Part shown: positions 1 to 23,717 of the stretch, piece after piece | How positions within the stretch are numbered: position 1 is the first letter of the stretch | How the letters are laid out: each line of letters begins with the position of its first letter | NCBI RefSeq assembly: GCF_963678975.1 | Contig: NC_089275.1 | Coordinates: 36,246,819 to 36,310,818 of the forward strand | From: Dysidea avara | Taxonomy: Eukaryota; Porifera; Demospongiae; Dictyoceratida; Dysideidae | Direction of reading: 5' to 3' | DNA: 64,000 nucleotides | Program-made: the position numbers and the translations under genes | The notes under the pieces: model-generated | What the model was told of the DNA's origin: nothing | Databases searched by the model: none | What the model saw: only the letters and a program-made list of their open reading frames with translations

Positions 1-97
1 CTGCTTGTTACTGGTTACAATAGTAACAGAGTAACAACCATGTTAATATCCTTGTGTGCACCTATGAATACTACCAACTGCATAACATCAAACAACA

Positions 98-1866
98 GTG
101 GGTAACAGCAGGCAACAGAGGGTAACAGCAGGCAACAGTGGGTAACAGCAGGCAACAGTGGGTAACACCAGGCAACAGAAGGTAACAGTGGACAACTGAG
201 GGTAACAGCAGGCAACAGTGGGTAACAGCAAGCAACAGTGGGTAACAGCAGGCAACAGTGGGTAACAGCAGGCAACAGTGGGTAACAGCAGGCAACACAG
301 GGTAACAGTGGGCAACTGAGGGTAACAGCAGGCAACAGTGGGTAACAGCAGGCAACACAGGGTAACAGTGGGCAACTGAGGGTAACAGCAGGCAACAGTG
401 GGTAACAGCAGGCAACTGAGGGTAACAGCAGGCAACAGTGGGTAACAGCAGGCAACAGTGGGTAACAGCAGGCAACTGAGGGTAACAGCAGGCAACAGTG
501 GGTAACAGCAGGCAACAGTGGGTAACAGCAGGCAACAGAGGGTAACAGCAGGCAACAGAGGGTAACAGCAGGCAACTGTGGGTAACAGCAGGCAACACAG
601 GGTAACAGCAGTATCAGTGGGTAAAAGCAGACAACAGTGGGTAACAGCAGGCAACAGTGGGTAACAGCAGGCAACAGTGGGTAACAGTGGGTAACAGCAG
701 GCAACAGTGGGTAACAGCAGGCAACTGAGGGTAACAGCAGGCAACAGAGGGTAACAGTGGGTAACAGCAGGCAACAGTGGGTAACAGCAGGCAACTGAGG
801 GTAACAGCAGGCAACAGAGGGTAACAGCAGGCAACAGTGGGTAACAGCAGGCAACAGAGGGTAACAGCAGGCAACACAGGGTAACAGCAGTATCAGTGGG
901 TAACAGCAGGCAACAGTGGGTAACAGCAGGCAACAGTGGGTAACAGCAGGCAACAGTGGGCAACAGCAGGCAACAGCGGGTAACAGTGGGTAACACCAGA
1001 CAACAGTGGGTAACAGCAGGCAACAGTGGGTAACAGCAGGCAACAGAGGGTAACAGCAGGCAACACAGGGTAACAGCAGTATCAGTGGGTAACAGCAGGC
1101 AACAGTGGGTAACAGCAGGCAACAGTGGGTAACAGCAGGCAACAGTGGGCAACAGCAGGCAACAGCGGGTAACAGTGGGTAACACCAGACAACAGTGGGT
1201 AACAGCAGGCAACAGAGGATAACAGCAGGCAACAGTGGGTAACAGCAGGCAACTGTGGGTAACAGCAGGCAACACAGGGTAACAGCAGTATCAGTGGGTA
1301 ACAGCAGGCAACAGAGGGTAACAGCAGGCAACAGTGGGTAACAGCAGGCAACAGTGGGTAACAGCAGGCAACAGTGGGTAACAGCAGGCAACAGTGGGTA
1401 ACGGCAGGCAACAGTGGGTAACAGCAGGCAACAGTGGGTAACAGCAGGCAACTATGGGTAATGGCAGGCAACAGAGGGTAACAGCAGGCAACAGTGGGTA
1501 ACAGCAGGCAACTGTGGGTAACGGCAGGCAACAGAGGGTAACAGCAGGCAACAGTAGGTAACAGCAGGCAACTATGGGTAACAGCAGTATCAGTGGGTAA
1601 CAGCAGGCAACAGTGGGTAACAGCAGGCAAAAGTGGGTAACAGCAGGTAACAGTGGGTAACAGCAGGCGACAGTGCCATGGGTAACAGAGGGTAACAGCA
1701 GGCAACAGTGGGTAACAGCAGGCAACAGAGGGTAACAGCAGGCAACAGTGGGTAACAGCAGGCAACAGAGGGTAACAGTTGATAACAGCAGGCAACAGAA
1801 GTTAACAGTGTGTAACAGCAGGCAACAGTGGGCAACAACAGGTAACAGAGGGTAAAAGCAGGCAAC
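98..1866. repeat. 20-bp minisatellite array, copy 1
   Basis: About 1.77 kb of head-to-tail 20-bp units reading GGTAACAGCAGGCAACAGTG on the plus strand, each made of two related 10-bp halves. Common variants end in CAGAG, CTGAG or ACACAG, and some units are only a 10-bp half. A marker unit with 'cagtatcagtggg' recurs near 605, 890, 1078, 1285 and 1588. A block around 954 recurs near 1145, so a higher-order period of about 190-210 bp is superimposed. The minus strand carries few stops in any frame, so long spurious ORFs with a 20-residue repeat appear in all three. The same unit occurs inverted at 24315-25769. Confidence 0.97.
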
Positions 1867-3894
1867 AATGGTCTAAGTTCATACCTGGGAGCAATACAAT
1901 ATTTCCTGATTAGAAAATTAGTGGTTAAGCTCTCCTAGTTTCCAATCGATTTACCACTGTTATATATTAGTAAAATTTGTAGCCAATAACAAATAGCACA
2001 TATATACTTGAATAATGCGTTATCAATTTTGAAGCAGCTAATAAGGTGTTGAAAAAAAATTAACATCAGGGGTTGATTTATGGTGGGGTATGCTTGGGAT
2101 GCTGGACCATTCCTTCAAGATTACTACTATGACATAGCAGGGAAGACAGTACAAAGCATAGGTGCAATTACGTGTTAAAAACATACAATGCAGAAGAACG
2201 GTTAATTTTTCTATACTTATGGAGGAGACATCCTTAAAATGATTCATTTTTTAGTATATAAGGACCAAATTAAGTATAAAATCAAAAATTCTAACAAAAC
2301 AGTCATGCATAATGAACATCTAATAGCAATTTCATCAACTATATAATTGCAGTGGAAACAATTTCTTGCTTCTATTATCTTTTTGTTCCCACCATCCTGT
2401 CACGTCAAATCTAAACTTTTCATAAAGACCTAGTCTATAAAAACCGGGCATGTGGGTACACATATATCAGATGCATAGCTTATCTTTGTGGCACAGCCAC
2501 CAGACATTTTACCCTCTAATAAGAATGTAGATGGCTTTTTAAGTCAGTTTACAGAATGTATAATATGTTATTCTACATGATCTTATAATCGTATTATGTG
2601 GAGTTATAGTTGTAGTTACAGTACATGGAGTTCCAATCCACGTATAATCCTATTACATACGTGAGCTGAGTTACATGTGACTCTTTGCCAACATGGTCAA
2701 CTATATTATGCATTTTATTACCTTTCAGACTAAGCAAGATTCCAAAGCAAACTTATGTACATGTATGCTTGCAATAAGTGCGCAATAGAAATGTCAGTAC
2801 CTTGCATTAGTTTTTATGTTGCATCATTATAACACGCCATACTCAGTATTAATTTATGTATTTGCTGTCTAACTATGGACTTTACCTGCAATTACATCAC
2901 AAGTATAAAATTGGCTGCCATAGTTGTGGATGTGCTTAACAATTTGTATGGGCAATTATGGGAATTGGACAACTATATATGTCTCAGAAGATATCAAGCT
3001 CTAACCGACAGGTATGGCCATATGTAGAGACACTGTAATCCAAACAATTTTCGAAAGATACTTAAATGTATTCCCAAGATCCCTAGTGCCTGCTACTATC
3101 GTTAATATTTTATGCTAAATCGATTTACACATCAAACATGTATGGATCAAACTTTTCTTCTGTACCAGTAGTTATATTAGTGATCTGAGTTACACATGAC
3201 TACAGTAACTGTAGTTTAATACCTTTCAGGCCAAACAAGATTCCAAAGCAATCATTAATGCTTTAACTGTATTCAGTCCTCTAGGATATTATCAAGAGTT
3301 AACTTGTGATGCTATACTTTAAATCTTTGCTTCCAAATTGTTACTAAATTCAATGCTAGAAAGAGTATTTTAAAAAATTACTTGAAGGCATACCTCCAGA
3401 CCCTGGATAGCCATGGAGCTTGCTCTACTAGCATGCTTAGTATGCTTTGCACATGCATCCACTGTATTAGTATCAACCAGTTAGATACCCCATTAAATTT
3501 TGCTCCAGTTAGCACTCCTCCTAGGGTCTGCCCTTGAATGTATACTTCATAAATTTGGGCTCTGATTACATGACTCCAACATGATGTATATACAATTTCT
3601 ACACAACAGTTTCTGAAAAAAAAAAGTTAAGTGCTCAGCTGATAATATGCATAAGCACAGTAAATCTGTATGGACACTCGATAAACAAGCTATATAATAC
3701 TGAGTATTTATAGTTGATTTATTATGATCCTTGTTCACCAAGCTTTGCATGTATGTCTACCATATTGAACTCTAGTTCTCTACAACCATTGCAATCATAA
3801 TTTATGAATTGGTGTCATACTGCACATGTATACAATTTCATAAATAAATACACTGTCATACAAACACTACCAAATAATTACACTACTAATCACA
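1867..3894. other. Non-coding AT-rich stretch right of array 1
   Basis: No coding region can be supported here. Around 2435-2455 is a fragment resembling one end of the GTGACC-type MITEs found elsewhere (a 'ccgggcatgtgggtacac' core). Around 2885-3020 is a segment similar to 17155-17300: both contain 'attacatcac', 'gaagatatc' and 'gctctaac' followed by 'acaggtatgg'. It may be a 5' piece of a dispersed element. The rest shows nothing recognisable. Confidence 0.5.
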
Positions 3895-6847
3895 TCAATT
3901 GTCAGTTGTCTTTGGCTTTGGAGCCACAACTCTTAATCCATTAGCATAGCAATAAGAAATATATTTGTTGCGACGCTTTATCATTCGGTGTAAAAAGAAA
4001 TGAAAATGTGTCTTTGGCATGGCACAAAGTATCTTCTTAAAGCGGCTCAACCATGCAAATGTTTGCTCACATGCCATCGTATTCAAATCTGGTTTAGCTT
4101 TACGTAGGTTTTCTGAGCTATACTTCTGTTTACAGGAAGCATCACGATGATTTTTCATATGGAAATCATCAATAACTTTGTTCACATCTAACCAAATATA
4201 TTTCAAGTCATTTGGTAGTGGTAGTGGTAAGCGAGAAACTCGCAAATTATTGAGGTGACACATATTATCATAAGATATGGTCAGTGTTTTCCAAGCATCT
4301 CGACCTTTAGTTCCAAACTGGCACACTAGCCACATCACCACTAACATGAAAACTTGAGCTGGACCCTCCGACCTACAAACAAAATAACAGTAACTACGTA
4401 ATATGTGACCAGATTTGTAAAAAGAACACCTTTTCCACACATTGACATGTCAGTAAACAACTGCTACTTCTCTGCACTGGCGGTATGAAAATAAATTAGG
4501 TTTAATCATGGAAAATAGAAAACAAATTTCAGCATTGATACAAAAGTTACAAAGTTTTAAAGTTCACAAAATGGGTCAATTGTATGTGGAAAAGTAGTAA
4601 CTTTTTGCAAATACGGTCACATTTTATACAATAACAGCATTTTGACAGCTACCATGTGTGTACAAAGTATCAAGGGATGATAACCCCCATGTTACGCCTC
4701 TGGTGCTGTAGTAATGTTTTAATAGGATTCCCTGCAAAAGTGATATGCACCACTAAAATGTTTTGTCTAAATACCCCTTGGAATTAAAATAAGCAAGAAA
4801 GGTCACCAACTTAGTATATCTAAATCATATGCAGCTCTACAACAAGAAAAGATGACAACCCGGATTTTCCTCTGCCTGTTTGATCAATGATCCTAAGTTA
4901 GAGGCTCATAGATGCAACAAACGGCCACCATTTCAGGCCACAATGAGTGGCATGTACCCATTCTAGTTACAAAGAGTGTCTGCCTTCTGTGTTTTGCCTT
5001 TCTTCTTGCATAGATACCTGCCCTACCAGCAGGACCATCTAGCACATTCTAACATAATGTCCTTCTACTAAATCATTATGTACAGTAGCACAGAATTATA
5101 GTGAATCACAACATTCCAGTTATTGAAGTTCTGTGATGTGCATGCTTACTGTATGTGTTTGAATTTTTTTAATCTTACCTGTACAATGGTTGCCATCTTT
5201 CTATATGGCCTCCAGCACCAACACAAAACCATGTTCCTCTTGTCCACTTCTGTAGTGTGCCAGGTTTTTCTCCTGTGTCCTTGTTACATGTAGTTTTTGT
5301 TGCTGTCACTTCTTCAGTCTGGTCCACTGCTTTGGCAAATTCAGCATAGCTTTTAATACCAGAATCAGTTCCTGGATATTAAATTAATTTTATAATACAT
5401 TTGGCCATTTAAGGCTACACATGGTATATCATAGTGCATTCACAGGTGTATTCACAGGTGTATTCACACACTATACTCATTATCATGTATAGGGAATTGA
5501 GGCACACACTAACATTAATGATATCTTATAAATATTTATCCTAAAAGTGATTGGCAGAGCAGCAAGGTAAACCACAAATTCCTACATTGTATTTTGACCT
5601 TTATTTGAAAAATATTTTAACAAGCAAGAAAGTGAAGTCTGTAAATTGGAATTTAGGGTTTATTTTGCCACTTCAATAATTGCTTCTTTTTTGTTGCCTT
5701 TCAGGGTCAGATGTGTAGCTACTTGTATAGGCATCTAAGGCAGCTGCCTCACCAAATTTTGGGTGGTTCAGTGAATTGACAAACTAAATAATCTGTCATT
5801 TTATATGTATTCAAAATTTTCATAAACTTTTAATGAGCTATGCTATCTAGTTTACCCGAAATAATGCTGAGGGAAGACCGCAGAAGTAATTCCAGATAGG
5901 CTCAGAGGTTTTAAGTTGTCATACAAGATCAATATACCCTAATAGAGCAGTCTGTCTCATCAATTTAAAAAATTCTGGTTACATCCTTATTTTAGTTTTT
6001 CATTCCTTTTTAATGATTGTTCTAATAGAATGACTGCTAAAGTCGTGTTATGGCAACTGCTTCACTAGGGTGTATCATTCTTATGTAATAATCTGGATTA
6101 AACTCTCTATTGAAGTATGATTAATATTTGACAACTTTCGTCATAAATTTTAAATTCACTGAAGCCAAGCAATTTATGTAGCTAGAGTTGTACCTTCTGC
6201 ATATGTATACTTTTAATCTAGGTATCTCAATAATTATCTACACTATTATCATGTGTACCTAGTTGATGGAAACTGGTTAATTTGTTGTATGGCTTACCCC
6301 ATACAGGAAAACGGAGAAAGCCAGGAACAAAAATAGTATCAGACCTAAAATTTACTTTGCTTTCAACTAAGAGTAAATTACTGGGACTCGATGTAAATAT
6401 GGAAATTATGTCACGTGTCATTTAGCTTCTAGTCTTTCAACTGCTATACTTACCTAGATTCTAAAATCAACTTATTTAGTTTTGGATAATTTTAATATTT
6501 CAAATTCAAGAATGCCTCAAGTGAAAACTTGTTGATGGTTGTGATAAGTGATAGATGGTTGTATTCAGTTTTTTATTTGAAATGGTTTTGTTATTAAGGA
6601 TTTGACTATATTTGTTTTGACTGCTATTAATGCTTTAAAAATCCTACCATCTTTTAATGTTGGTGCAAAAGCAACTATATGGGGTTGCAGATCCCATGTT
6701 GAAAAATTTTAAAAATCCATGGGAAAAGTTGTGGCATAGAGATTTTTAATAATTTTAGTATCAATTTGAATTCTAAAACTTCTACAGCTTCTAGGGGTGC
6801 AACATAGGTGCAACTCCCAGACTCGTTTGAAATTTATTTATTTACAG

Positions 6848-6881
<34 letters not shown>

Positions 6882-9800
6882 CAATGTTCATGCTGTCCCA
6901 CCTGTATGTCTGGTCTAGAATTGCCAGTGTTTGACATCATGAGTTGTATAAACAATGCTAATTTACACAGTACATTTAAGTCAACAGAACAGAATGATTA
7001 TGTTATTGACATGCATAGGATAGACCTGTCCAGCCCACAACAAATATGCTTGCAGCACCTTTGCATATGGTGGGACGCCTGTTTCACACATTACAGCTCA
7101 GTCTAAAACATTCCAGAACATCATTTACATGTAGTACTTTGTCAATAACAAGTTATCTTGTTTATCGGCAAGTTACATTACTTAATGCTTTGTCACCTAC
7201 CCACCAACCCTACTACTTCAGTCAAAAGAAAAAACTCAACCTTTCAGTGATTGACAACTGACATGGGATCCCAGTTTGGAGGGGCACAGTGTTTATTGCT
7301 TAAATTAACAGTAATTCTCAAGGAGATGACGATCTCTCAAGGGGAGCAATTTTAATAAAGATATTGCTGCAGCAACATCATCCCACCTCCTTTGCCTAAG
7401 AGATTTCACATGCCCCAGTGAAGTCCTGGGCTTGTCCAATTTATCACCAAGTTAGCTTAATTACATAAGCCATAACCATGCAATAGTTTTACTGGCCTGC
7501 CTAGGATGCATGTGAGATTGTGATGCTTGCGTGGATGATGTCATTTGGGTCAGGGGCTAAAATAGCTACTTTTAACAACTAGCCCAACTCGAAACCAGAG
7601 GGAGAGAGAGGTGCTATATTACACAAAGGCATAACCAGAAGGTGTGTGTGTGTTTACAACTACAACAAAAAGTACTGGTAGCAGGGGTCTGGGGGCCCAG
7701 CTGTTGAAAGACTTTGAGCATTTTTATAGTACAAAAGTCAACTTGTTTCGACTTTTTATTTTATTGAGGATGTGCCAAACACATGCACCCTAGTGCATGA
7801 TCATTATATGTGAGTCTATTAATTTCATTCTAATACTGCAGACTACAGTATGTAGCATGTGTAAACTCACCCCTATATGATAGATGCAGGTCAGGTTTGC
7901 TACACGGTTAGGGACCCGCCGATTATGCTCATAATTTTACCTATTATGCTATGCTGCACTGCTCAAAAATTTACCTATTATGCTTAAATATATGCTCAAT
8001 ACTTACCCATTATGCTCAAATTATGCCTAATTATTTATGCTTCAGTTCCCATGCTCTAGTAATAATTTCCAATTAATGGATAAATAATAAGTGGCTGAAG
8101 CACAAACTTACTTGTCAAAATGCATATCACAGAAAAGATTTATATACTCTAATAGAACAGTCAGTTATATGATTGTTCTATTAGAGTTACTGACTGTTCT
8201 ATTAGAGTATATCGATCTTTTTGTGATAGCTATTTTGATAAGCAAGAATTCATATTATTACACAAATATTCTACCTATTATGCTAGCATTATGCTCAATG
8301 CTTTCAGACAGCTATTATGCTCATAATTATGCCAGCATAATCGGCGGGTCCCTATACACGGTTTATATAAACTGTTAATACAATAAACTTGAATGATTTG
8401 TTGAAAATAGTTATTTTGAGATTGGGTATTTTTAAAGTGAAATGTTATTTACAGTAAACTTTAATGATCTGTGCTAATTTAGCCTCACATGTACATTTTA
8501 CAACTAGCCTATTCATCATTTACAACTAGCCAAAGGTCAGTTATAACTAGCTTTTTGGCCACAAATAGACCCCTTTTTTGCCACTGATTTGGGTACTCAC
8601 ATGTGGCTAGTATATGAAGGTGATGAACTATATGTAAATAAGGAAAGGAGTAGTAAGTCTAGTAAAAAGTAATAATGTTCAAGCATGTATGCAAGAAACT
8701 ACCAATGTATCATGAAGAGTTTAATAACAAAAACTAAAGACAGCATTACAATGACATACCCTGACATATTGCAGCTGATTGAACTGATACACCAACATTC
8801 CCTGAAAAACATTGAACATGTTTTTTGAAGTTGATATATTCTTTTAACGTCACAGGAACACCTTTCTTCTTCATCACCTCAGAGTGCTCAGAGCAAAAGG
8901 CATTTCCAGGTAGAGGTCCATTGGAGCATGTTTTAACATAATTTAGATTGTTGGAAAATGCATCTTCGCTTTTATCAACATCAAACATGCATACAGGGTA
9001 GTGCAATTTCCAATTTCCATCAATGGCCCACAATTCTCCACATCCTACAGTTGAAAAATATGTGCTATATACATTAAACCAAATGCATACTGATATATTT
9101 CTGACCTCGTTTTTTGCATTCATCAGAGCAATTTTCATGTTTATAAACTGAATTGGCCCTTTTTATGTCTACTTCTTCCATGTAATTTTCTTGGGCTTGG
9201 GGGTCCACTGAAAATATAACTACGGCGATTCTCTTCAGACAATTCTTTTTCGATTTGATGTGTCCACCAAGCACTTGCTACACTCTTGCGGTGCAGAAGC
9301 TGACTAGTCTGTTGCTCTTGGGAGTCATCTGAACATATGTTAAAAGGTTACAAATTGACGAATGACTGAAAGTAAGTGCAATATAACAATAAGATAGAAG
9401 TTATAGAGTCCTATGAAAATCGTAGGATATATTCATTAATGTAAGTACATATGTGATGTAGTGGTGACAAAACCTAGAGGGTCTATTGCCTAGTGTGTGG
9501 TTGGAACTATATAATCTATATACATATACTGTATGCCACGCATATTCCACTATATCTTCTTACATACGTATGCTAGAGTATCCACCATACATATCTAAAT
9601 TTGATACGTTTACAACCATTTTACACAGTTTTTTTAATCGATGCTCACTGCATGTATCAGGAAAGCTCAATTTTATAGTGGCAAGAGTGGGTGGAAGGGT
9701 GGTATGACATTTTACAAGCATAAAAATTAAAGCACCATTTTGGGAATCGGTATGGATAAGCCAAGTTATGAGCCAATTAGTACTCAAAACCAGCAACTCA

Positions 9801-12783
9801 ATATTTAACACCATGAAACTGTACAGCCACACAGCCATCTCTTAGTTGACATATAAGTCCCAGGCAAATGGAGACCTCACACACTGAACTTATTACTTTA
9901 TATATATTATTATTAAAATGTGACCGGGCCTGCAAAACACAGGGCGTGTGGCCACATAAACTTTGCTCACTTTTTATAACTTTGCTGACTCATAATTTCT
10001 TCTGTCATTTGGCTATGGCTAAGCAATGTTCATCACTTATTGTGAATTTAACTGGTAATGTAATGCAAGTTACAGAATGAAAATATTCTCTTCCAGCACT
10101 GAGATATGTTTTGTTCTGTGATGAGATTAGTGCATGCCAACATGCCCAATTTTCGCAGGTCCGGTCAGATATTTTATTTCATGTATTCATTATGTAAAGC
10201 ATGACGGTAAATTCTACACATACATTAAGCTCCAACTGTTTTGGAGATATATATACCAGTATAATTGTCCTTACAATTTTATTTCACAGGGTTCCATTAT
10301 AATATTTTATTAACAGAGGATGCCCAAAATTTCTAGGGAATGCTTTCAGACCTTTAGAATGCCTGTTCCTACTGGCTCATTGTCAATGTCGCAGAGCTTA
10401 CACTACTGTCTCCAACACTGAGCCAGTTGACCAAGCTGCTCACATCTGTCAACAACACAGCAGCACCAATCAACCGATTTTTGTCCACGTTGCTACCCCA
10501 ACTGCTATACTATTCTGGACAACTGCTGCAGCTTAACTGACCATGCAACTGGCCCCAGCCAACCAGGCTGCAGTTGGCCACGGTTTACAGCCAACTCACA
10601 TCACCAACTGGTTACTTGACTGACTCAACCTACTGTATGATTATAGTTTTCAACTGTAGTTGTGAAGTAAGAACCAATCTCCTAGGCTTAACTTTGTCAT
10701 TGTCACAGCAGCTTCTTCACATATGCATCGTTCACTACTCACTCAGTGGTGGGGAGTACTGTGGCAACCAGCTACCAGGTATTAGCATTTGCTTACATCA
10801 AGAAGCCATTGAAGCCTATATCTTCACATTATAGACCCAAATTTCTAGTAATGGTTCTGGTTTTCACAATGAGTTCCAGTGAAAATCTATATACCACAGG
10901 AACTTGAGAGTTTGAAGCGAGGACCTGTTAAGTACACCAGTCTGCATTGATTGGGTGTTGCTGAAACATACACTGTATTTGCTATGTGAGGTAGCTCAAA
11001 TCAGGCAAAATGTTTCATGCTGATCAAAATGGTACAAAATGGACCACCACTGTAAGTCACCTTATACGTACTGTAGTTAAACAACACAGATGCATACTGG
11101 TGCTGTTAATTTTCACTGAACAACTGATTAAATGATTGGAGATCATTGAAACTCTAATAATCGATAATACTAATTGATAATTGGCTTCCAAAAGTTTTAC
11201 TGAAATGCACACCTATATTTGAAATTTTTAGTAGCTGTAAGAGCATGCTGAACAAGCTTATCACGATAAACTTAGCAAATCAGGTCTCAGCTATTTCATG
11301 TTTTTATCAATAAAGAATAGTTTAGCATACTCTGGCACAGATTTACTGTTTAAGAATTGCAGCTTGATAGTAAGTATTTAATTGTACCGATTAACTGATT
11401 ATGAACAATTATTTATGACCAATTAATTGGAGATACATTCCGTAGCTGCACAGCGCCAATGTACAAACAAATCATGTTACTATACTGTGTTAACATACCT
11501 ACTGCATTTGCTCTCAAGTTTACACTGTTGTATTTCTTCAGAAAATACTATAAATTAATATAATTGCAGTTATTGGTTTCCCTCATCCGCTCGTTGTATA
11601 CTTCTGCAGATCCTTCAAAGCTTGTCCAGCAATGATGCCTGCATAATAATACAGTGTGCATTAAATTGTGCTAGCAATAATGAACTGCAGAAGCTACAAT
11701 ACTTCACATACAATTCAAATTTTCCAATCACATTTTTATACTGTACATATACAAAAGATTAAACTTTGGTTGGTTTTAAAGTATAGTCATGAAATAGCTA
11801 CGTACTGTGAAATAATGTGACACATATTAAAGTTCATTTTGTGGAATACTAGTAAATTCATTGGTAAGTTTAAGGCTCTGTTTGCTTAAATATACCGCAC
11901 ATAATCATACTTGTTTAAAATATACAAACGCACATTTGCACATTTGAGCTAGAGAACACAGCACACAAGCTAAGACAATTCACATATAATTTTTGAATAA
12001 CACTGTATTGCCATGGTCAGCAAATTTACATGCAGGATTAACATAGCATGTGGACCCATAAACTAGTTACATAACTAGTGAAAGGTAGAATTTGTAATGT
12101 ACAGCTTGATAACTTACCCAGCTGAAGCCCATTTTTCACACAGAGCTCTTTCGATATAGCAAACATTAGATGCTTTTACCAGGTCATTTTCATTGTCATA
12201 AAATCTGTATGAAACATGTACAATCAAGTATCTAGTATCATGATAGCTCACACTCTAACCTGTATCCACCAAAAGTATCTCCACCAAATGAGTCGTACCT
12301 GTAGTTGATACCACATGACTTACATCTTAAAATAATCTTCTGGGCTGGGACAGGGCCACTAATCATATAACAGATAACAGTAATTGGATTGTGGTTGATA
12401 TGCAGTGTTGATGAGCATTGCAGATATTCAGTACACTTAGGGCCAAGAAACTTGTTAACTGGTTTACCAAGTTTCATTGTTGCCTATAAAAGATTCATAT
12501 CTGACATTTATTTAAAAGCACAAACTGATACTTACCTCCCACAGGATTCTTTCTGATGGCTTTCCACAAAGTTCTTTGGTGACAGATGGCAATGCATCAG
12601 CTTCTGCTAACAACTGGTTGATAGTAGAGACTTCATAACTTGTTGAAAAAATTGAATTCATTATGGTGCAAATGAGAGCAGCTCTGTGATGCTTGTAGGT
12701 TGTCGGCACATGTTGTGAAAGCTGAATGAGCAAAGTTGCTTGATCAAATTGTCCATTTTCCATTGAACCCAGTAGAAGCTTTT
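3895..12783 (-). CDS. KDZ (Zisupton/Kyakuja-Dileera) type transposase, multi-exon
   Basis: Eight exons with matching splice phases: 12783-12536, 12483-12260, 12204-12118, 11638-11499, 9328-9106, 9044-8760, 5371-5179 and 4372-3895 (TGA stop). Exon 2 has a Cys-rich CxC-like zinc site (GPKCTEYLQC ... RCKSCG). Exons 3-4 carry NVCYIERALCEKW and CWTSFEG, typical of KDZ proteins. Exon 6 has GELWAIDGNWKL and AFCSEH. Exon 8 has YDNMCHL, a DDFHMKNH segment and NTMACEQTFAWLSRFKK. The probable acidic catalytic residues are the Asp of IDGNW, the Asp of YDN and the Glu of CEQ. Read without extra introns, exon 4 has an in-frame TAG and exon 5 shifts frame. A 54-nt GT-AG intron starting at GTATAC and a 76-nt one starting at GTAGTT would repair both, so the gene may be intact. 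The true start exon lies upstream of 12783 and was not found. The longest intron (5372-8759) holds a hAT MITE. The product would act in the nucleus on its own transposon ends. Confidence 0.85.
4405..4620. mobile_element. GTGACC-type MITE
   Basis: Terminal inverted repeats: the left end reads GTGACCAGATTTGTAAAAAG and the right end, reversed, reads GTGACCGTATTTGCAAAAAG. Both continue into a CTTTTCCACA core. Flanks are ATAT on the left and ATTT on the right, close to the AWWT 4-bp duplication seen for the family. It sits in the last intron of the KDZ gene, about 30 bp from the acceptor of the final exon. Confidence 0.8.
6849..6880. repeat. (TA)n microsatellite
   Basis: Sixteen uninterrupted TA dinucleotides, inside the long KDZ intron. 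Confidence 0.97.
7909..8354. mobile_element. hAT-type MITE with perfect 8-bp target duplication
   Basis: The 446-bp element starts TAGGGACCCGCCGATTATGC and ends with the exact reverse complement. It is flanked by a perfect 8-bp duplication TACACGGT (7901-7908 and 8355-8362). An 8-bp duplication and a TAGGG end are hAT hallmarks. Inside, short 'attatgct' motifs recur and there is an inverted pair of 'actctaatagaacagtca' (8148-8210). No transposase is encoded, so it would be non-autonomous. The intact ends suggest a young copy. Confidence 0.93.
9329..11498. other. Intron of the KDZ gene, including a CAG/CTG-rich patch
   Basis: Apart from the MITE at 9920-10168 this intron shows no recognisable gene. 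The stretch 10320-10830 is less AT-rich than its surroundings, with many 'caactg' and 'cagctt' motifs. An 86-residue plus-strand ORF at 10574-10834 has no domain I recognise. I cannot say whether this is an exonised or foreign segment. Confidence 0.45.
9920..10168. mobile_element. GTGACCGGGCC-type MITE
   Basis: The left end reads GTGACCGGGCCTGCAAAACA. The right end is its imperfect reverse complement ('cgcaggtccggtca'). Length is about 249 bp, like the copies at 22956, 42879 and 59612. It lies in the intron between KDZ exons 4 and 5. Confidence 0.85.
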
Positions 12784-13441
12784 CTGAGAAATGGAAATAA
12801 AATGTAATGATGTCTCCTGGCCTCACTGGTATTTATATAACTTATAATTAATCAGATCTGTGATGTCAACGGGCCAGGCAGAGGAGACTAGACACACATC
12901 ATAGCCCTTACATAATGACAAAGTGATCATGAGTAGCAATTTCCTATGAGCAAACCACGGACAGTAGTGATGGTTTACACAGCTCTTATTGTTTTTCTTT
13001 TAGCTTATAGCTTTACACTGAACTTTTTCAATAAAGGATAAAATTAGCAACAAACAATTTAATTATATTTAAGTCTAAATGATGAAAATTAAAGGCTTTG
13101 TGATTATTGCTATATAGTAAGCAGTTGGCTTTTGCAGTAATATCTGAGCTAAACCATCAGCATGCATTAGCATGCAGGTATTCCATGAGCTAAAACTGTA
13201 TAATTACCTTGCTAGTTACAGACCCATGCTATAATGTACATAGATTAACACTACTCTATCATGTAGGCTGCTTATCTTCACTGTTTAATTGCAGTGCATA
13301 GTAATGAGTTAAACACAAAACCTAATGGTGTATGTTGTGATTTATATACCAGTGTATGCACAAGAACATAAGCTAATCTATCCCAGAACAGCACATGGGA
13401 CAAACACAAAGTAGATCAATATGTCTTTTTGTCCAACTCAG
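12784..13441. other. Gap between the divergent KDZ and PHD genes
   Basis: This about 0.66-kb stretch separates the most 5' KDZ exon found (minus strand) from the first recognised exon of the PHD gene (plus strand). Missing 5' exons and promoters of one or both genes could lie here or farther away. No TATA box or initiator stands out. Confidence 0.4.
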
Positions 13442-14398
13442 CATTGCCTGTGCTGATAAATTGTGGATACAAATGCTGGTTGATATGGGTGGGATTGATA
13501 TATCGTTTGAGGTTAACACACTGGTACGTAAACACACTAAAGTTATTGTGGTTTTTTTTTCAGGAATGTAGCTCACCAATATGTTTTGAGGGCTCCATGC
13601 CAGGGCTGAAAACTGTAGGCCAAAACGTTGGTAGGTAAAACTGTAGTATAAAGGTGCTATCAAGAGAATGAGGAACTTCTTGATATGGGCATGGGTCATA
13701 TAAGTAAAAGGTATTCTCTCTACAGTTAAGTGGTGAACATTATGAAATATTCATGGGTGAACATTATGAAATATTCATGAGTGTCCAGATCAAGCACCAA
13801 ACTATTGACAAGAACTTAGCTCTATTTTTCCATAAATCTTTTCCTAAACCATGTTCTATGCACTTACCAGGGCTTATTGAATTATAGCCGGTGACATAAA
13901 TAATTATCTCAGCTTTGCCTTGGTAATTATTGACATCATCTCACTGGTGACATAAATAATTATCTCAGCTTTGCCTTGGTAATTATTGACATCATCTCAG
14001 GTTTTTAAATTGTCTAAAACACCTACTACGAGTGTCTAACTATTACTTGGACACTGTGTCTAATCTCCACTTTGAATATAATTATGATTAATCTATGTTT
14101 ATGGTTTAACTGTACTCTATGTTATGTGCTACATGAAATTCACTGATTTTGTGTGCTAATGTGAAACTGGATCGTCTAATATTCTAATGTAGGCTCTTCA
14201 AAAAGGAAAAAGAAGAGAGGCAAAGTTGAGCCATCAAAGGATATTTGTCCTTCGGATTATTGCAAACGTAAAGGAAAGAAGCTTGCAATGATGTGCTGCA
14301 ATGGTTGCGACCAGTGGTTTCACTGTGTCTGCCTGTCTACAACAATACGAGAAGCACAAAAGCTTCCATCATGGTACTGCCCTATGTGCAAACAATAA
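13442..14398 (+). CDS. PHD-finger protein, 3' exons
   Basis: Three exons with consistent phases: 13442-13523 (acceptor AACTCAG, donor GTACGT), 13564-13630 (acceptor TTTTCAG, donor GTAGGT) and 14193-14398 (acceptor AATGTAG, TAA stop). The last exon encodes a Lys/Arg-rich linker (SSKRKKKRGK), then a C-terminal PHD finger: CPSDYC, MMCCNGCDQWFHCVC and WYCPMC supply the C4-H-C3 zinc ligands. PHD fingers usually read histone H3 tails, and are also found fused to or encoded beside transposases. Earlier exons were not recognised, so the start is unknown. The gene runs divergently from the KDZ gene about 0.7 kb away. It could be a host chromatin gene or a second gene of the same element. Confidence 0.75.
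13733..13780. repeat. 24-bp direct duplication
   Basis: Two tandem copies of a 24-bp unit beginning GTGAACATTATGAAATATTC, inside the PHD gene's last intron. Confidence 0.9.
13891..14000. repeat. 56-bp tandem duplication
   Basis: Two adjacent, almost identical copies of a 56-bp unit starting GTGACATAAATAATTATCTC (13891 and 13947), inside the PHD gene's last intron. Confidence 0.92.
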
Positions 14399-17351
14399 TA
14401 GTTATAACAGTTAATAGTTATAATAGTTATTTGTTTGTATTTTGCTAATCAAGTAATGGTCTGCATTAAACATAGAATGACTGTACCGGATAGTTTGTTC
14501 TTACCTGGCCTGGGGAGAATAGCACTTAGCGGTAAACAAGATTCATACTGTTTTAAACTCACTTTCCAGATCTCAAAGGGTTTCAAGTACTTAACAAAAT
14601 AAGGGTATGTAAATGGAAAGCCTTACAAATTATTAAACAGTATTGATAAAACATCTGTATATCAGGATTTGTATTTATAAAACAGTTGATATCTATCTGC
14701 ATAGTGCATGATAAGCCAATTGAAATGTAGGGTTTAACCATGTTGATATCATTTACCAGACATTCTTAAAATAGTTTAGGCATCCCCATGCACTACATGC
14801 AAGTAGCATAGTCCATGTTGTATTGTAAATATACAATGGATTAATCATATGCTCAGTGTGCTTTATTTGGAGGAAATGAGAATTTATGCTGGTACTATGA
14901 ACCAGTGTTTAATCTAGGGTTGTTAGGAGGGGAAGTTTTCCCCTCAGTTTCCCTCTCTAAAATTGGAGTGATAACTACCCAGGGGCACTGTTTATATACA
15001 AAATGATGTCAGAAGTGCTCCCAAGTTGATTTTTAGATACCGAGTTTAAATAAATAAATTATCCTTGGCACGCATTGGACAAGTGTAAAAATGTTGTTAG
15101 TTTTGGTCTATTTTTCAGACATGTTAGTTTGTGGTGGCCAGTGAACTCCAAAAATGATGGGCAGTGTGTGATAGCTATCACACAGACATTAACTTGGACA
15201 CCCCCAAAGTTCCTAACCCCCCCAACAGAGAACTGTCCTAGATTAAACACTGCTATGAACAATACATGAAAGTGCATTGCATGGGTGATTTTTTATCTCA
15301 GAATTAAATCCATTCAGCTACTAAGAATGTTATAATCGTACAATCAATTATGCATGCAGTTAAAAATCACACCAACATTAAAATTTAAAAGATACCCTCT
15401 GGTTGACACATACAAGGATCAAATTGTATATAGCTACATACAACTTTTCTCAAAACATCTTAACTACTAATACTCTCAAATTATAAAGGTCTCCATCCTT
15501 TACCAAGCTATATCAGCTTGTACAGTATGCGAAACAAATGTTACTTGTTCACAAGCCATTCTTTTCTGCCAGTAGAATAAGCACTGTACTATCCTGTCCT
15601 CCCTCCCCCCCCCCCCCTAATTAAGCTCCCTAACAATGCTTCTAGATTCACCCCTGCATACTTGTCAAGCATTGATATAGCTTCTTCAAACGTAACACAT
15701 GCTTTGATATGATTATCATGAAGAGCAGAATTAAATTCTTCTAAAATCTTGTAACAACCACAGCTTGGCTGATATCATTCTCTTCTTTTGTCTTGCATTG
15801 AATAATATGATGTTTTAATTCAATCTAGAAGTACAGCATATTTCAAACTGAAGCAACAACATTTGTGCTCTTAAGTAAATCTGTTAAGATAACTTTATCA
15901 GTGCATAAACATATAGAAAGACTGCGATGCCTGGTTATGGCCAGTTTACCGTTGTTGTTATTTCCTAACTTGCTCTAGTATTGCCATCAATTAAAAATAA
16001 GAATTATATAGTCAGTTGTATCATGAGTACCTGGTGGCCTGGGGTCAAATGGGAAAACAGTCTATCTAGCTGTATAATGAAAGAATCCCTGTTGCTAGTA
16101 AGGGAAGCAAATATTTATTCTTGTCTCTCTTAGTGGTGTTCAGACTGTTGTGAAACTTTTGAGCTCTACAGTCCCTTCCCATTACTCCTGCACAATCCTT
16201 CTGCAGGTTGTTATCTCAGGATTTTCCTGCATCAACACAGAGTACATGAGTGGTGCTCAGACATCCCAGTGGGCAGCAATAAGCATGTTTAGCATGGCTT
16301 TGCTGTACAACAACAGTTTCTTAAAATTTCATAAAGCTTGAATAGTTTCTTTCCTTAAGCACATGATGTTACTTGCCATAAAATAATTAAATGGCCATTG
16401 TCTTCTTCCTCGATCACTTTAATTTGGTTTGCTCACCACCAATCTGAGAACTTGTGTAAGCCTGTTTAGTGCCTGCCTGATACCATTGCAAATTTTTGTT
16501 ATGGATTTCTAAAGTGACATGCATAAAACCTTTTTACCAGGCAGCACTGAAAATATCAAGTGTACAATAGTGATTGGGGTGGAACACTGTGGTCAATGCA
16601 CTATATTATCTAGCAAAACTCCACACAGTGTAACCAAAACCTATATACTGGAATATATTATAAACTACATATGGAATATAAATCACAAGGGTTACTAGTC
16701 TGGTCTGTTACATCAAAATTTGACAAAAATCGTGATACGCTGGTCCAAAGCACTAAACTTGGTACAATTACTCCTAAGCATACATGAAGTGATGCCCGAA
16801 GGGGTGCCACCCCGGATTTTACCTTCGGTGACCTTTACAGCCATTTTTTGCCTAAAATTGGTCGTTTTTGTGTTTATCTCCCTTAGGAAATCACTGCATG
16901 GAATTAAGCTTACAGATCTTACTTAAAGAAACAGTTTGGTCTTTGTTTGGAGTCAATAGCATGGTTAAGCACTATATCAGTCCTGCTAATTGGTCCGCCC
17001 ACGCATTTAATTAAATAATAGAAAAGAGTTCATTTTCATGTTTTACTAGTAATGGTTCAAGTGTAATGTTAGATAGGCATGTATTCCCCACTACCCAAAC
17101 TTTAGTGGTTTCCTGTTGCTATGGGAACCTATTAATATGACCTATTAGCTTTATCTACAATTACATCACGAGCATTAAAATGGCATCTGTATTGGGGGAC
17201 TTCAATATTTTCGAGTACAGACGCCTATGGAAACAAAAACTTTGATCGATCATATCTTAACCGGGAAAGAAGATATCGAGCTCTAACAAACAGGTATGGT
17301 TATAGATTAGTGGTTATTGTGATTATAGCGATTATTAAACAGGTATGGTTG
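14399..17351. other. Gene-poor stretch
   Basis: No gene is supported. A homopolymeric C-rich tract lies at 15601-15617. The stretch 16786-16930 contains 'ggtgacctttacag', shared with the inverted repeat arms at about 28.05 and 37.96 kb. The stretch 17155-17300 resembles 2885-3020 and immediately precedes the decayed transposon ORF at 17352. Short ORFs here look random. Confidence 0.5.
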
Positions 17352-18238
17352 CAGGTACATATGGCTAATTTCTCAGAGTTCCTTAGAGACACTGCCAATA
17401 AAAGTGAATTTTTTGAATTTTTGACACAGAAAGTGTCTAAACGTGACTACCCCAATGGAAAGGAAGTATACATCACTTCAGGTCAGTTCAACATGATGTT
17501 TCAATGCACATGTTCTATTTTCAATAGGAAATTGGTCATTTTCAAGGGAAGTAACCAGTTCATATGATAATTATTAGCTTCATCTGCCAAAGTCTTGGTG
17601 AACAAACAAACCAGCCTTACCTTTTTATCATGCATTTACAGGGTGTGACACCACCTCACAGCTTCTTGGTAAAGGGAAAAAATCTGCGTGGGAATCCTGG
17701 AAAGCTTATCCAGAAGTTACAAAAGCAATTCTTTATGCAGCAGAGCATCCTTTCCAGGTGTTACAACCAGGCACTCCAGCATTTAAGATATTAGAACGAT
17801 ATATGTGTGTGTGTTATATGATAAAACCACACCATTATACTCTGTGAATGAAGCAAGAAAGAATTTTCTGCAAAAGAGCAAAGACAATAGAGACTATTCC
17901 TCCAACAGGTATAACAATGTTTTTAGTATTTCTTTTATTAATTTTTTTTTGAAATTGTGTGCTCTATACTACAACACACTAACAGAATGCTGTATCAGGC
18001 AAGCATAAGGACAGCATGCCTGCAGTCCATTGAAGGAATTCAATCCCCAGAAGGATTTGGGTGGATAAGGCATGAGAGTTCATGGATGCCGGTATGGACA
18101 TTGCTTCCAGAAGTGGCAAAAGCAAGCCAATAATTGATCAAGTGTGGATGTAAAGCTGAGCCTCTGTGCTCAAGGAAGTGCAAGTGTCATGATGCAGGCC
18201 TCCCTTGCACTGCTCTTTACCAATACAGTGGAAATTGT
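17352..18238 (+). pseudogene. Decayed transposon ORF (TGCDT/LERY family), copy 2
   Basis: Fragments in order match the 36.4-37.7 kb copy: FSEFLRDTANKSEFFEFL (from about 17362), CDTTSQLLGKGKKSAWESW (from 17644), an ILERYMCVLYDKTT block, VNEARKNF, then IKCGCKAEPLCSRKCKCHD and CTALYQYSGNC at the end. The reading frame breaks at a (GT)n run near 17802-17812 (two extra bases relative to the protein frame), and a TAA stop at 18131 precedes the Cys-rich tail. The EADTR/TVDTD middle is missing or spliced. The family is common in cnidarian and sponge genomes. I do not know its transposon superfamily. Confidence 0.75.
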
Positions 18239-20744
18239 CTGAGTTTATATATAGGCCAAACCCAGCAAGCTAGTATAATTATTAATTTATCTTTAATTTT
18301 AGCGACTTTTAATTTGTTCAACTGCTTTATGTTCCTTTCCAGAAAAACTTGCATTTATGTAATTGTGTTACTAAACCTACTTACCAGAGGTTGTGGACTA
18401 CCTAGATGTAAATAATACATAGTCTCACTACTCTTTGATATTAAAAATTGAACATTATAATAACAGTAAATTTTGTAGGTTTTATTTTTGCGATCGATCA
18501 TACAAAGGGGTGCCAGGTGATTTGAACATGGCACCCCTTCTGAAATCATTTCATACACCATAAGGAATCACTGTACCAAATCTGGTTCTTTGGGCCAGGG
18601 TGTCAAGATCAAAACTGTAACAGACTGGACTAACTGAACTGTTATCGTACATTCAATTGTAAGACTACAGAAGCCTTTTTGATCAAATGACAATATTTTT
18701 CTATGTGGCATATAGGACAAAAGGTTTACTAAGTTCTTTCCTATACATTTGAAGGTTACAAAGGTTTACAGTGACAAAAGGCTTTTTATTTTTTAAAGCA
18801 ATATAATTTATCCTTGTGCATGTGAAACATAGATTAAAAGGGTCACTAGGCTATTTCTCATACATTTGACAGTTACAAAAGGTACAAAGTATTTTAAAAG
18901 CAGTATATAGTAGATTAAAAGACTTACTGGGCTCTTTCTCATACATTCAAAAGTTACAGTAGTTAAAAGCAGCCGGCAGTATTTCTCTATGTAGAGTGAT
19001 GATATACAATGAAACCCTAGGAAGGACACCATCAGAGAATTTATTCTTGTCCTTTTCAATATGTGTCCTTTGTTGAAGGTGCATGTACAAAATACTGTTA
19101 AGATTAATTGGGACCCAAGTTAGAGGTTGTCATCAGTTCAGGGATGTCCTTTTAGAGGGGTTCCACTGTAGGTTACAAGCCACGCTGTAACACTTTAATA
19201 TATCAAAGACCCCACACTATACTGTTGTGACTGTAAAGGTGTTGTACCAACTGCAGTGTACATAAAAGGTATGCCGGGATAATATGGGTTTTAAAGTGTG
19301 TTTGAAAAGGTACTGCAGTCCACAGCTACTGTATAAATAGCCTTAACTCCGGACCAAATGCTTAGAGATCTACCAGGCAATTCAAGGAGTTTCTCCCTGT
19401 GATTTACATAATTATTACAGATGGAGACCAGCACACAGCAATGTTTCCTCGCATAATTATATTAGTGAAGTAGCATAGCATAACAATTGTGCATTTTTTG
19501 TGATGCAAGCATCAAATATTGGTACAGAGATGTATAGACAATCCCATAAGGAACAAATCTGGATATATTTGGATGCTGTATACCATGCCTCCTTCAATGA
19601 ACTCTGCCCACTGTTGTTGCATACTAATATTAAATTGGGAATCGAGGCTTTGTAAAGGTGGAAATGGGTTTTAAAACTTCTTCCTTTGTGATGTAACCTG
19701 GATATTGGGCATCCCCATTTGACAAACCCCATCCACTTGGCTAAACTTATTCTTCATAATGTAGTAATACACTGATGTAGGTTTAATGCATTTTAGGCCA
19801 TAGAGTTGAGTTCCCAGTGAAGATATTACATTACCAGCATAACATTACTATACAACCTTTAGGTGTGTACTCACTTCTGTTTTCATGTAATCTAGTTCAT
19901 GCACTGAGTAAATACCACTTATTCAATTCTGGAGATGATCTAATCATGAGGAAAATTGTCTTTATTGAACTAGAGCACTGAATACTGATGGTGTACATTT
20001 TGGACATGTGGTATCCTTTTAAATGTACCTGGATACCTCAACTGAGCTGGTTTCATTGTTGTTGTTTTTTTGTTCTGGATCGCACTGATTATGCTCACTG
20101 GATTCTTGTTCATCTGAAAGATATTGCTATCTTTTATGGATAACAAGACTGTTGTTTAATATTGCAATTAATGAATGAAGTGCATCGACAAAAGAATGTT
20201 CTAATAAAAAAATATACAGAAGTAATTGATTTAATATCAAGGTGCTCTACAATATACAATATGCAGGTGTAGATGTATCTAGAATGGTAGATGTATCTAG
20301 AATGGTAAAAGAGCTTCACAAAAGCCTGATTCCTTTTCCCATGTTGTTCAAACAAAATGCAGGCAATGCCTACCAGTGCAGCAGTATAGTAAAAGTACCT
20401 TTACCTATAAAATGGAAAATCAACCATATGAGCACATTTGATACCTAAAATATTTAATAACCAAGCAACAAACTTTATTGTGCACATCTGTTTGGTAATG
20501 ATTGCAAGACATTCTAAATGCCTTAAATTACAAGAAAACTTATGAAATGTTTTTCAACTGCACCATGCTCTCCTCGGAATCCCAATAAACACAATGGTTC
20601 CAATTATTTCACATGTGCCCACAAGAATGGTTTTCCAAAATGTGGTCACATATATAGTGTTAGAACTCACCTACCTATTATAATAAGTTGGTATCCACCT
20701 TCATCATAAACTATCATGAGAACCCCATGTTATAATTATATCTG
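18239..20744. other. Gene-poor stretch with degenerate repeats
   Basis: Nothing codes recognisably. A degenerate tandem repeat lies at 18715-18990 and two adjacent 18-bp copies of 'gtagatgtatctagaatg' at 20268-20303. 'aggggttccactgta' at about 19155 looks like one end of a CAGTGGAACC-type (mariner/pogo-like) element. From about 20400 to 20660 is a degenerate MITE ending in 'ttttccaaaatgtggtcaca', related to 51008-51259. Confidence 0.5.
18715..18990. repeat. Degenerate tandem repeat, roughly three units
   Basis: Three diverged copies of a unit containing 'ctatttctcatacatt' followed by 'gttacaaa' and then a T/A-rich spacer with 'aaaagcagtat'. Spacing is about 80-125 bp. Confidence 0.6.
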
Positions 20745-21310
20745 TGGCAAAGCAAACCTCAATCTTGGATTTTTGAAAATAAATTTATATATTCTCAAAT
20801 CCAACTTGTACCAGCAACTACTGTTACCTTCTATCAACACTGCTCAGCCATCTGGGATCATCATCACCAAACTATAATTCACAAACTAGAAATGATCCAA
20901 CATCGAGCTGCAAGATTTGTCCTTAATGAACCCCAACACAAATCTAGATAGTGTTTCAGACATTTTGAACTACCTAAAATGGCAAAGTTTGGAAAGTATA
21001 TAAGAGACGAAACGCGAGATTTGTATTAATGTTTAAGATTGTGAGAAACTAGTGATGCCGCCAAATCATTGTTTACCTCAATGACCTCCTCTGTCATATT
21101 CTTGTTCAAACAATTCCCTCAAGTTTACACAGCTCCAATCCAGAATTAGTCTATACAAGTACTCATTCCTACCAAGGACAATCATAGACTGGAACAACTT
21201 AACAATAGACAATACGCACACAACAAATATTGACACTTTTAAGGATGCTATAGATAAGCTAAAGCATTGTGATTTGTAATGGTGGGCTTTACTAATTGAA
21301 TTTTAAATAA
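20745..21310 (+). mobile_element. 5'-truncated non-LTR retrotransposon (LINE) tail
   Basis: One frame encodes CSAIWDHHHQTIIHKLEMI followed by QHRAARFVLNE, the conserved segment near the C-terminus of CR1/Jockey/I-like reverse-transcriptase ORFs (usually W-D-P-H, then K-L-E-x-x-Q-R-R-A-A-R-F). Downstream come remnants of the usual end: 'tactcattcctaccaagg' and 'gactggaacaactta' (WN-L in these families). Frameshifts and stops interrupt it. The 3' end runs into AATAAATAAAAC. It lacks the endonuclease and most of the RT, so it is a dead copy. Confidence 0.8.
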
Positions 21311-21937
21311 ATAAAACAGTCAGGTACATCAAACTTATTGTGCACTTTGATAAAAGCACAATAATTCGTTCACAAGTAGATTAATACTTAATGATCATTT
21401 TTGGATATGTAATAACACTTATAATGACTATGGTAACAGTCTACAAAATGGCGGCCATGAAACTATATCATTTTTAATCAAAACAGCATTTATATAATTA
21501 GTCCTTAAAATCTTAATAAAAATAGGAGGCTCCAGAGATTTTGGTGGCCACTGTCAAATCCAGTCTTTTTGTGAAGCCATAGATCTGAAGTTGAGACCAA
21601 AGTAAAACTCATTCAACACTTGTGCTGTAAAGCCTTAATAAATAAATAAATAATAAATGAAGGTCTCAAAAACACTATCCTCTTTCAGCTCTTATTTCTC
21701 ATTACTTTATGAATCAAATTACTACTATATATATATATCGTATAACCTGGTTTAGTGCAAGCATAGATCAGTGGGGTAGAAGATCTATGGTGCAAGTGAA
21801 GTATATTATTGATAAGATAAAACCTCTAGCTATTAGGTGACTGCTCCGTTTTATTTGCTTTACTGGTTTCAGAAACCCCCTGATGCTACCCCTGTACTCC
21901 AACAATCCGGGTATGATGAAAACCGCTGAAAATAGTT

Positions 21938-22193
21938 GTGACCAGATTTCAGAAAACCAATCTTAATGTCATATTTGAAATACACAGAATTACATGATAC
22001 ATTGTGTCCTCATTATAGTGGAGTTATATATACACCCGCTGAACTATTTCACATTATTTCCTGTAATTCAAGGTACTAATTACACATTCTAATCACTAAG
22101 ATGCTGATTGGAAGTTAAAGGTTCTTTATTTTGGTTATAAATATTTTAAGAAGTCAAATTTACATTATAACTGATTTTCCAAAATCTGGTCAC
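21938..22193. mobile_element. GTGACCAGATTT-type MITE
   Basis: The left end GTGACCAGATTTCAGAAAAC pairs with the reversed right end GTGACCAGATTTTGGAAAAT. Length is 256 bp. Flanks AGTT and ATTT only partly match a 4-bp duplication, so it is probably older than the other copies. Confidence 0.8.
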
Positions 22194-22955
22194 ATTTATG
22201 AGCTAAGTGGAGTATATTTTCAGAAGCTATACTCTAATAAAGCAGTCAACTGTACTCTAATAGAGCATAGAGATAAATGAAGTACATTTTTACATTGAGC
22301 AAAAAAATGTACAGTAAGAATGCTTCAAGATCAGATGCCATGTATATAGTTGGTTCAACTAGGTGTGAATTTGACAGGGGTAGTTTCCGGAGTTTATGGA
22401 AACCCCTTTGGGGTTAGCTCACCTCAGAGTATCTGTACTACCATTAGATAATCTGTTATTAGGTAATAGCTATTATAATTGTGCTGTTCTTTGTTTAACA
22501 GTAGCTATCTTCCTCCCAATACAGTAGTGAATTCAAGGAGAGTACAGGGGGCATGTGTCCCCTTCCTTTTTCCATCCTCAGTCCTATAGTTTCATCCCAT
22601 AATTGTACAAATGAAGTTTCTTAAAAGGCTGAGGTACTCTAAGACAGCAGTCAGTTAATTACTCTAATAGAATGTTTACTGGAGGAAACACTATAAGAAT
22701 CCTGTACATTTATTGCTACTTTTGAGGCTTTTATATCCATCATCATTCCATGGGTATGCTTTTACAGTAACTCACGGCTATAGGGTTTTTTGTAAGTAAA
22801 GCACACATGGTTCTTTGCATGCTATATAATAATTATTGTACTGTGTTTTATTGCGATTTATCTCAGTTACCTCAGTTAGTCTTATACAGTAACTGATACC
22901 TAATATACACCAAACTTTATTTCTTGCTTTAAGCCCATCCAAGATGTATATATTT
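22194..22955. other. Non-coding stretch with dispersed motif copies
   Basis: Contains three or four copies of the dispersed 'tactctaatagarcagtca' motif or near variants (about 22228, 22250, 22640 and 22665). No gene recognised. Confidence 0.5.
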
Positions 22956-23206
22956 GTGACCAGGCCTGCAAAAAACGGGCATATGGGCACAAACTACACC
23001 TTGTTACAAAACAAGACGTCTCAGTGCTGGAGTAGATTATTTTCATTCTGTAAATTGCAATACACAGCCAATTAAATTCTCCATAATAGCTGCAAATAGC
23101 ATTGCCATAGCCATCTCGTGGTGGAAATTACAAGTCATAAAAGTTATAAAAAGTAGACGAATTGTATGTGCCCATGCACATGCCCTGTATTCGCAGGCCC
23201 GGTCAC
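22956..23206. mobile_element. GTGACC/AGGCCTGC-type MITE
   Basis: The left end GTGACCAGGCCTGCAAAAAA and the reversed right end GTGACCGGGCCTGCGAATAC form inverted repeats that extend through 'gggcat' and 'gggcaca'. The flanking 4-bp duplication ATTT is exact (22952-22955 and 23207-23210). Confidence 0.92.
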
Positions 23207-23717
23207 ATTTTATACAAACAATATTGTCTTAGTTTTCCTTCCCTGTAGTACCAGGTCAAGTGACTTTAAGCTATATCACAAAGATCATCTACCACTCAAT
23301 GTTGCAAACAATGAATATTTTGTCAGAATCTGCATACACAAGGCATCTATAAAAAGATTTGACTGCATGGTTTACATGATAATTGTTAGATGATAATCAC
23401 TAATCAGTTAGTATGTCAGAAGCTCTAAAACTTATTGTATAGCTATTGTATAGTTTTAAACACTCAGCTTTTAAAGTTTAATGTGAATTGAAGTTTCGGA
23501 AAGTGAGAGATTACAACCTTGTCAGTGGCTGGGGGCTGCACCCACAGATCCCTGCTTATCAGCATAACTAGAAATCGCTTCTAAAAATCCTACATCTGCC
23601 CTTGTTATATATATTATGCTGCTATAGTCAGCAGTTGCTAGGTATGTAAAGCTGAGTAACAACAAGAAATACACTTATACCATGATCATGCACTTCACTT
23701 GGGTGCATGCATGTAGC

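Follow-up and report, generated by a model that had tools for sequence, protein, structure and literature searches.

Does a sponge genome hold an intact KDZ transposase gene, from which two apparent lesions are spliced out as exceptionally short introns? The question is raised by a 64,000-nucleotide stretch of Dysidea avara DNA (hereafter the window), in which a first-pass annotation had described, at positions 3895-12783, a possibly intact KDZ gene with two predicted mini-introns. The eight in-phase exons of that description are borne out. Delineated by domain matches and exon joining, the gene extends on the minus strand from 12763 to 3895, with exons 1 to 4 at 12763-12536, 12483-12260, 12204-12118 and 11638-11499, and exons 5 to 8 at 9328-9106, 9044-8760, 5371-5179 and 4372-3895. 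All seven introns exhibit GT-AG boundaries. The landmarks IDGNW, AFCSEH, YDNMCHL and CEQTF are present, and the CxC-like zinc site noticed earlier corresponds to exon 2 (12483-12260), which by itself scores 27.3 bits against CxC5 (cut-off 26.9) and carries the initial part of this zinc cluster. The KDZ identity holds in a profile search, the check that the first-pass annotation had proposed: joined exons 6-8 score 28.4 bits against PF18758 (KDZ, Pfam; curated cut-off 26.6), exon 8 alone 26.5 bits, just below the cut-off. The gene thus exhibits both a KDZ domain above cut-off and the associated CxC zinc cluster that characterize the superfamily. The D of YDNMC and the E of EQTF, which we take to be catalytic residues of the KDZ transposase, are invariant in 12 aligned loci (from 30 cut out, some of them near-duplicates). 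The exon structure and the domain matches argue for a real KDZ gene of eight exons, predicted to encode a CxC5 cluster and a KDZ domain.

The Dysidea avara genome (550.8 Mb in 108 contigs) was searched with the protein sequence of exons 6-8, the resulting counts being lower bounds. At least 82 matches were obtained, including seven places where the last exon is 96-100% identical (one of these seven matches is split in two, the smaller piece showing 88%). Besides the window copy, six other copies (designated C5, C8, C4b, C7, C9a and C9b) are near-identical to it, with 98-99% identity over 5.5 kb. The KDZ model itself finds 39 places in the genome, from which the family of the window copy is absent and among which more distant relatives are present; relatives at 55-60% identity (e.g. 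C13:5428274, C3:1183048 and C6:16065323) score 28.6-33.0 bits with this model. The joined transposase frame is open in one of the seven copies (C9a, 617 aa) and broken in the other six. As the lesions lie at different places in these six, the decay has been independent. At the end of exon 5, C8 lacks one base, a lesion of its own; C7 has lost an AG acceptor besides suffering frame lesions. Across the segment of 5.5 kb common to the seven copies (4411 gap-free columns), pairwise distances range from 0.22 to 1.37%, and the window copy has 39 private substitutions against 4-13 in each of the others. By this measure the window copy is the most decayed of the seven.

The interval first annotated is only part of a larger feature, which spans window -41 to 25899 on the minus strand. 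Its portion inside the window is 1..25899, with the 5' terminus at 25899; its 3' terminus lies 42 bases left of the window, at window -41 (L052:9959), for a total of 25,941 bp. All seven copies share one 3' end sequence, beyond which the flanks are unrelated. Genome searches returned eight full-length ends and four partial matches for a 140-base query from the 3' end, and eight 5' ends and two partial matches for a 135-base query from the 5' end. Comparison of termini places the 5' terminal inverted repeat of the window copy at 25860..25899 (minus strand). The termini of C9a, an element of 29,963 bp (C9:11730116 to 11760078), are imperfect inverted repeats, equal at 28 of 41 positions and at 16 of 18 in their core. 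Subtraction of terminus coordinates gives lengths of 25.9 kb for the window copy, 29.6 kb for C5, 30.0 kb for C9a, 33.9 kb for C4b, 37.4 kb for C9b, 37.6 kb for C7 and 47.0 kb for C8. Exact 8-bp target-site duplications flank five of the seven copies; at the termini of the window copy and of C8 a duplication was sought and none was found, the flanks not matching. The terminal repeats and target-site duplication that the first-pass annotation had proposed to look for in paralogous loci, both of them known from members of the superfamily, accordingly exist in the family, the duplication being missing from the window copy itself. Most simply, the latter is a rearranged or recombined copy. Two orphan ends without a KDZ exon 6-8 match beside them were also observed, a 5' end at C1:8894589, 5.6 kb inward of which lies a PHD exon, and a 3' end of the same family at C8:28850128. 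Adjoining the 5' end of the window copy, positions 25900-26140 (minus strand) exhibit a translation resembling a reverse transcriptase remnant (YADD-like, by eye); if this remnant is real, the KDZ element landed in it.

The two lesions noticed at the outset are real: an in-frame nonsense codon TAG in exon 4 (11550-11548, minus strand) and, in exon 5, a run of C lengthened by one base (9203-9199, minus strand). Real too are the GT-AG stretches supposed to remove them, one of 54 nt (11601-11548) ending at the TAG and one of 76 nt (9223-9148) containing the expanded C run, and removal of each restores the frame. Both lesions are private to the window copy (one of seven copies). At the exon 4 site the six other copies all have a sense codon, and at the exon 5 site they all have four C where the window copy has five, so that each of them codes continuously across both sites. 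Lesion-free copies of exactly this kind had been named by the first-pass annotation as an observation that would refute its introns. Apart from the lesions, the window copy is nearly unchanged in both supposed intron stretches. The diverged relatives L067, L068 and L069 (40-56% identity) encode recognisable protein, with the same residues, across the supposed introns, the 54-nt stretch being coding in L067 and L068 and the 76-nt stretch in L067 and L069; L067 has a stop between the two stretches, perhaps an intron. In the protein of C9a, whose exons 1-4 match CxC5 (PF18718) with 60.2 bits, this match extends to residue 196 and thereby covers the first four residues of the 54-nt stretch, the excision of which would remove the end of the match.

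How much weight the restored frames deserve was estimated by a control on the open exons of C9a, in which a TAG was set at every codon, or one base was duplicated at nearly every position, and rescue was scored when some GT-AG stretch of 39-121 nt left an open exon. Such pseudo-introns rescued 525 of the 611 TAGs so placed and 1693 of the 1806 one-base insertions, the second count being generous as short stop-free shifted pieces were scored as rescued. A TAG itself provides the AG of a pseudo-intron. Frame rescue by a GT-AG stretch is therefore expected by chance, and as a clue to mini-introns it carries little weight. The GT-AG ends and restored frames of both stretches thus do little for the idea of an intact gene splicing out its TAG and frameshift; the comparison with the sister copies refutes it, and together with the diverged relatives, the extent of the CxC5 match and the chance of rescue leads us to reject it as extremely improbable. 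A host gene domesticated from a KDZ transposase would account for a gene of several spliced exons whose boundaries are conserved among the copies (except the lost C7 acceptor), but it is at odds with the dispersal of seven nearly identical copies that share their termini, with the 8-bp duplications of five of them, and with lesions in six, the broken window frame included. We reject this reading as well, its probability being practically nil. The KDZ gene of the window, once thought possibly intact, is broken by its private TAG and one-base insertion. It lacks the open reading frame that an intact autonomous KDZ gene needs, and the alignments of its copies mark it as a pseudogene, the lesions of which would be ordinary mutations. 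The window copy is thus almost certainly a dead and rearranged member of a family of giant cut-and-paste transposons of the KDZ superfamily, with plain mutations, not introns, in its exons.

Further rearrangements of the window copy are apparent from its alignment with C9a. About 10.9 kb is missing at a deletion junction (13890..13999) where a 56-bp unit occurs twice. Window positions 13942-15654 match C9a about 10.9 kb further on, and beyond 15654 the match continues, with gaps, up to 25899. Position 13889, the first common alignment break, was considered as an end of the element and rejected because C9a shows the deletion junction there. A later insert of 445 bp (7910..8354) with exact 21-bp terminal inverted repeats is absent from all six other copies, and the alignments flanking it overlap by 9 bp; pieces related to it are located at 30250-30434, 32993-33177, 46075-46264 and 56430-56619. 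In the comparison with C9a only, 6.5 kb of the window copy (17317..23879) is absent from the matching place. Positions 16729-18609 exhibit 81-bp imperfect inverted ends (74%) around a coding-like sequence on the plus strand with a Cys-rich end (by eye); this may represent a small nested DNA transposon, ~1.9 kb long. Elsewhere in the window, a small plus-strand ORF (26355-26720) has a start resembling, by eye, the GIY-YIG nuclease motif (YIGK), and 29173-35548 is occupied by a large array with a basic unit of 31 bp and higher periods of 61, 92, 123 and 215. A stretch of 3.1 kb is found twice, at 43451-46597 and 53843-56949, with 96% identity and a spacing of 10.4 kb, within a cluster of related segments (65-88%) from 38 to 63 kb.

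The family carries a second gene, divergent to the KDZ gene. The sole part of it found in the window copy is the last exon, encoding a PHD finger (14195..14395, plus strand); its ATPase part is missing at the junction 13890..13999. C9a carries the gene in the stretch deleted from the window copy, and its exons there exhibit Walker A (GTGKST) and Walker B (VVDD) motifs; GTGK(S/T)T and VDD are present in both copies covering that region of the alignment. C9a further exhibits at least 18 tandem repeated exons of 46-64 nt, each with its own splice sites and encoding a Pro/Thr/Ser-rich unit (~11.6-9.0 kb; L049, L053). Such small exons may allow the length of the protein to vary. The last exon of C9a encodes a PHD finger scoring 36 bits (PF00628, cut-off 24), and the PHD exon is found in all seven copies and in three further places, with 89-99% identity. 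Judging from order, strand and splice sites, the ATPase exons, the repeated exons and the PHD exon would belong to one transcript. The reading frame of one ATPase exon differs between C9a on the one hand and C4b, C7 and C9b on the other; the copy with the open transposase is thus probably not intact in both genes.

Neither Pfam nor NCBIfam gives the ATPase part a match above its curated cut-off, and nothing convincing is found in PHROGs or the PDB. The weak matches, considered for naming the protein and rejected, were nSTAND3 (0.014), COE1_DBD (0.024), DUF5906 (0.029), RNA_helicase (0.076) and AAA_22 (0.16); an NCBIfam best of 0.02; in PHROGs, phrog_25314 of unknown function (0.0014), clamp loaders (0.024 and 0.016) and DNA primases (0.14 and 0.25); and in the PDB, none with one sequence and only L-lactate dehydrogenase (0.031) with a profile. 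No named transposition ATPase is among the weak PHROGs and PDB matches, nor any sequence similarity of the TnsC, MuB or IstB kind. The product of the second gene is predicted to be a P-loop ATPase, a class assigned by its Walker motifs.

A query with the ATPase gave 75 matches, which were grouped into 20 loci. A divergent KDZ cluster accompanies 14 of them, six in the family of the window copy and eight in diverged subfamilies with an ATPase identity of about 33-50% (two of the eight pairs, separated by ~50 kb on C6, possibly represent a single duplicated locus). The gap between ATPase and KDZ genes is below 15 kb in 12 of the 14 divergent pairs, and 27 and 56 kb in the other two; an ATPase locus would have any KDZ cluster within 80 kb by chance with a probability of ~1%. 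The place C2:38119839-38148897 combines, within 30 kb, a related terminus, a PHD exon (94%) and ATPase exons (74-88%) without a KDZ exon 6-8 match; it may belong to a sister family or be a copy from which the transposase was lost.

The ends of the element are marked by a satellite of 20 bp. About 90 units lie just inside the 3' end of the window copy (93..1871, plus strand), and about 76 units of the same satellite, in the opposite orientation, just inside the 5' end (24314..25766, minus strand); C9a likewise has 20-bp arrays in opposite orientation inside both of its ends.

The second gene and the arrays each invite a rival reading. The ATPase-PHD gene may be captured cargo: giant transposons of the brown alga Ectocarpus, those of the KDZ superfamily included, carry extra genes mostly of unknown function, according to passages of PMC12477816, and in Dysidea avara a divergent KDZ partner is lacking at six of the 20 ATPase loci, and among 35 KDZ clusters there are 20 (the window copy one of them, by deletion) without an ATPase inside a distance of 80 kb. 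However, the same divergent layout is found at 14 ATPase loci, and its recurrence at eight loci of diverged subfamilies is not expected from capture in one family; we regard cargo as a possibility of some weight, though on balance an unlikely one. As for the arrays, a simple 20-bp satellite is able to expand anywhere, and an independent genomic satellite could have come to lie at both ends by chance. Against this, the 3' array separates the transposase from the common 3' terminus in all seven copies, and the 5' array separates the second gene from the 5' terminus in the two copies in which it was read (the window copy and C9a), which makes a chance placement very unlikely. The arrays may instead have a role in end recognition or silencing.

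Several known elements invite comparison. Zisupton was reportedly described by Bohne et al. in 2012 as 'recently active in fish'. In PMC12730594, Zisupton and a Dileera family are given 8-bp duplications, and Zisupton shares with the present family its place in the KDZ group, its terminal inverted repeats and its 8-bp duplications. Kyakuja of Laccaria, also of the KDZ group, has 7-bp duplications and no terminal inverted repeats in the same source (PMC12730594), in contrast to the 8-bp duplications and imperfect repeats of the present family. KDZ1-KDZ3 of Cryptococcus neoformans, as described in PMC12810828, are ~9-11 kb long, with CxC1, terminal repeats of 139-241 bp and duplications of 8 bp (KDZ1) or 4-8 bp (KDZ2, KDZ3). 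They resemble the Dysidea avara family in combining a KDZ transposase and a CxC cluster with terminal inverted repeats and duplications of up to 8 bp, and differ from it in their smaller size, in their terminal repeats and in having CxC1 in place of CxC5. Comparable in size are the KDZ elements of up to 30.3 kb among the giant families of Ectocarpus (PMC12477816); most of these families have nested insertions and many have extra genes, and their transposases are often pseudogenised. They belong to the same superfamily and size class and show the same decay, in a different host, and the relevant passages mention neither an ATPase-PHD partner nor mirror arrays at their ends. The same passages cite a KDZ element of 31.7 kb in Chlamydomonas reinhardtii, again of this size class, that was seen to move. 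Given these algal elements, the size, cargo and decay of a giant KDZ transposon are not new (PMC12477816, as far as those passages go). A limited search of open-licence PMC full text found neither a divergent ATPase-PHD partner nor mirror satellite ends of KDZ elements; the text of a giant transposon review (PMC6431247) is without KDZ, Zisupton and PHD, and one paper, PMC7641404, matched KDZ, transposon, ATPase and PHD together.

On the available alignments, the family appears to be composed of an eight-exon transposase gene, a divergent ATPase-PHD gene, imperfect terminal repeats and kilobase-size mirror arrays. Its transposase would most likely bind the ends and insert the element via an 8-bp staggered cut; the 8-bp duplications are observed, and a DDE-type cut-and-paste chemistry would be expected from the KDZ family. 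The ATPase-PHD protein would most likely assist target choice or the assembly of the end complex. The window copy is predicted to make neither protein, having two breaks in its transposase and most of the second gene gone. In prokaryotes, Tn7 (TnsC), Mu (MuB) and IS21 (IstB) encode a transposase and a P-loop ATPase together. No PHD finger is known from these ATPase partners, and the likeness to the second gene is a possible analogy, no sequence link having been found. A more specific model may be put forward as a speculation of rather low probability. In it, KDZ transposase and P-loop ATPase-PHD protein would form a two-component transposon with ATP-dependent target capture guided by histone marks, and the mirror arrays would be multi-site landing pads for transposase or ATPase, letting an element of 30 kb synapse.

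The claim of unusual mini-introns is thereby removed, and the control demonstrates how easily GT-AG pairs explain away damage in a coding sequence. In its place, a giant KDZ family is located in the Dysidea avara genome, with its termini, its target duplications and little divergence between its copies. With an ATPase-PHD gene retained next to diverged KDZ genes, KDZ transposition becomes a candidate for a two-component system.
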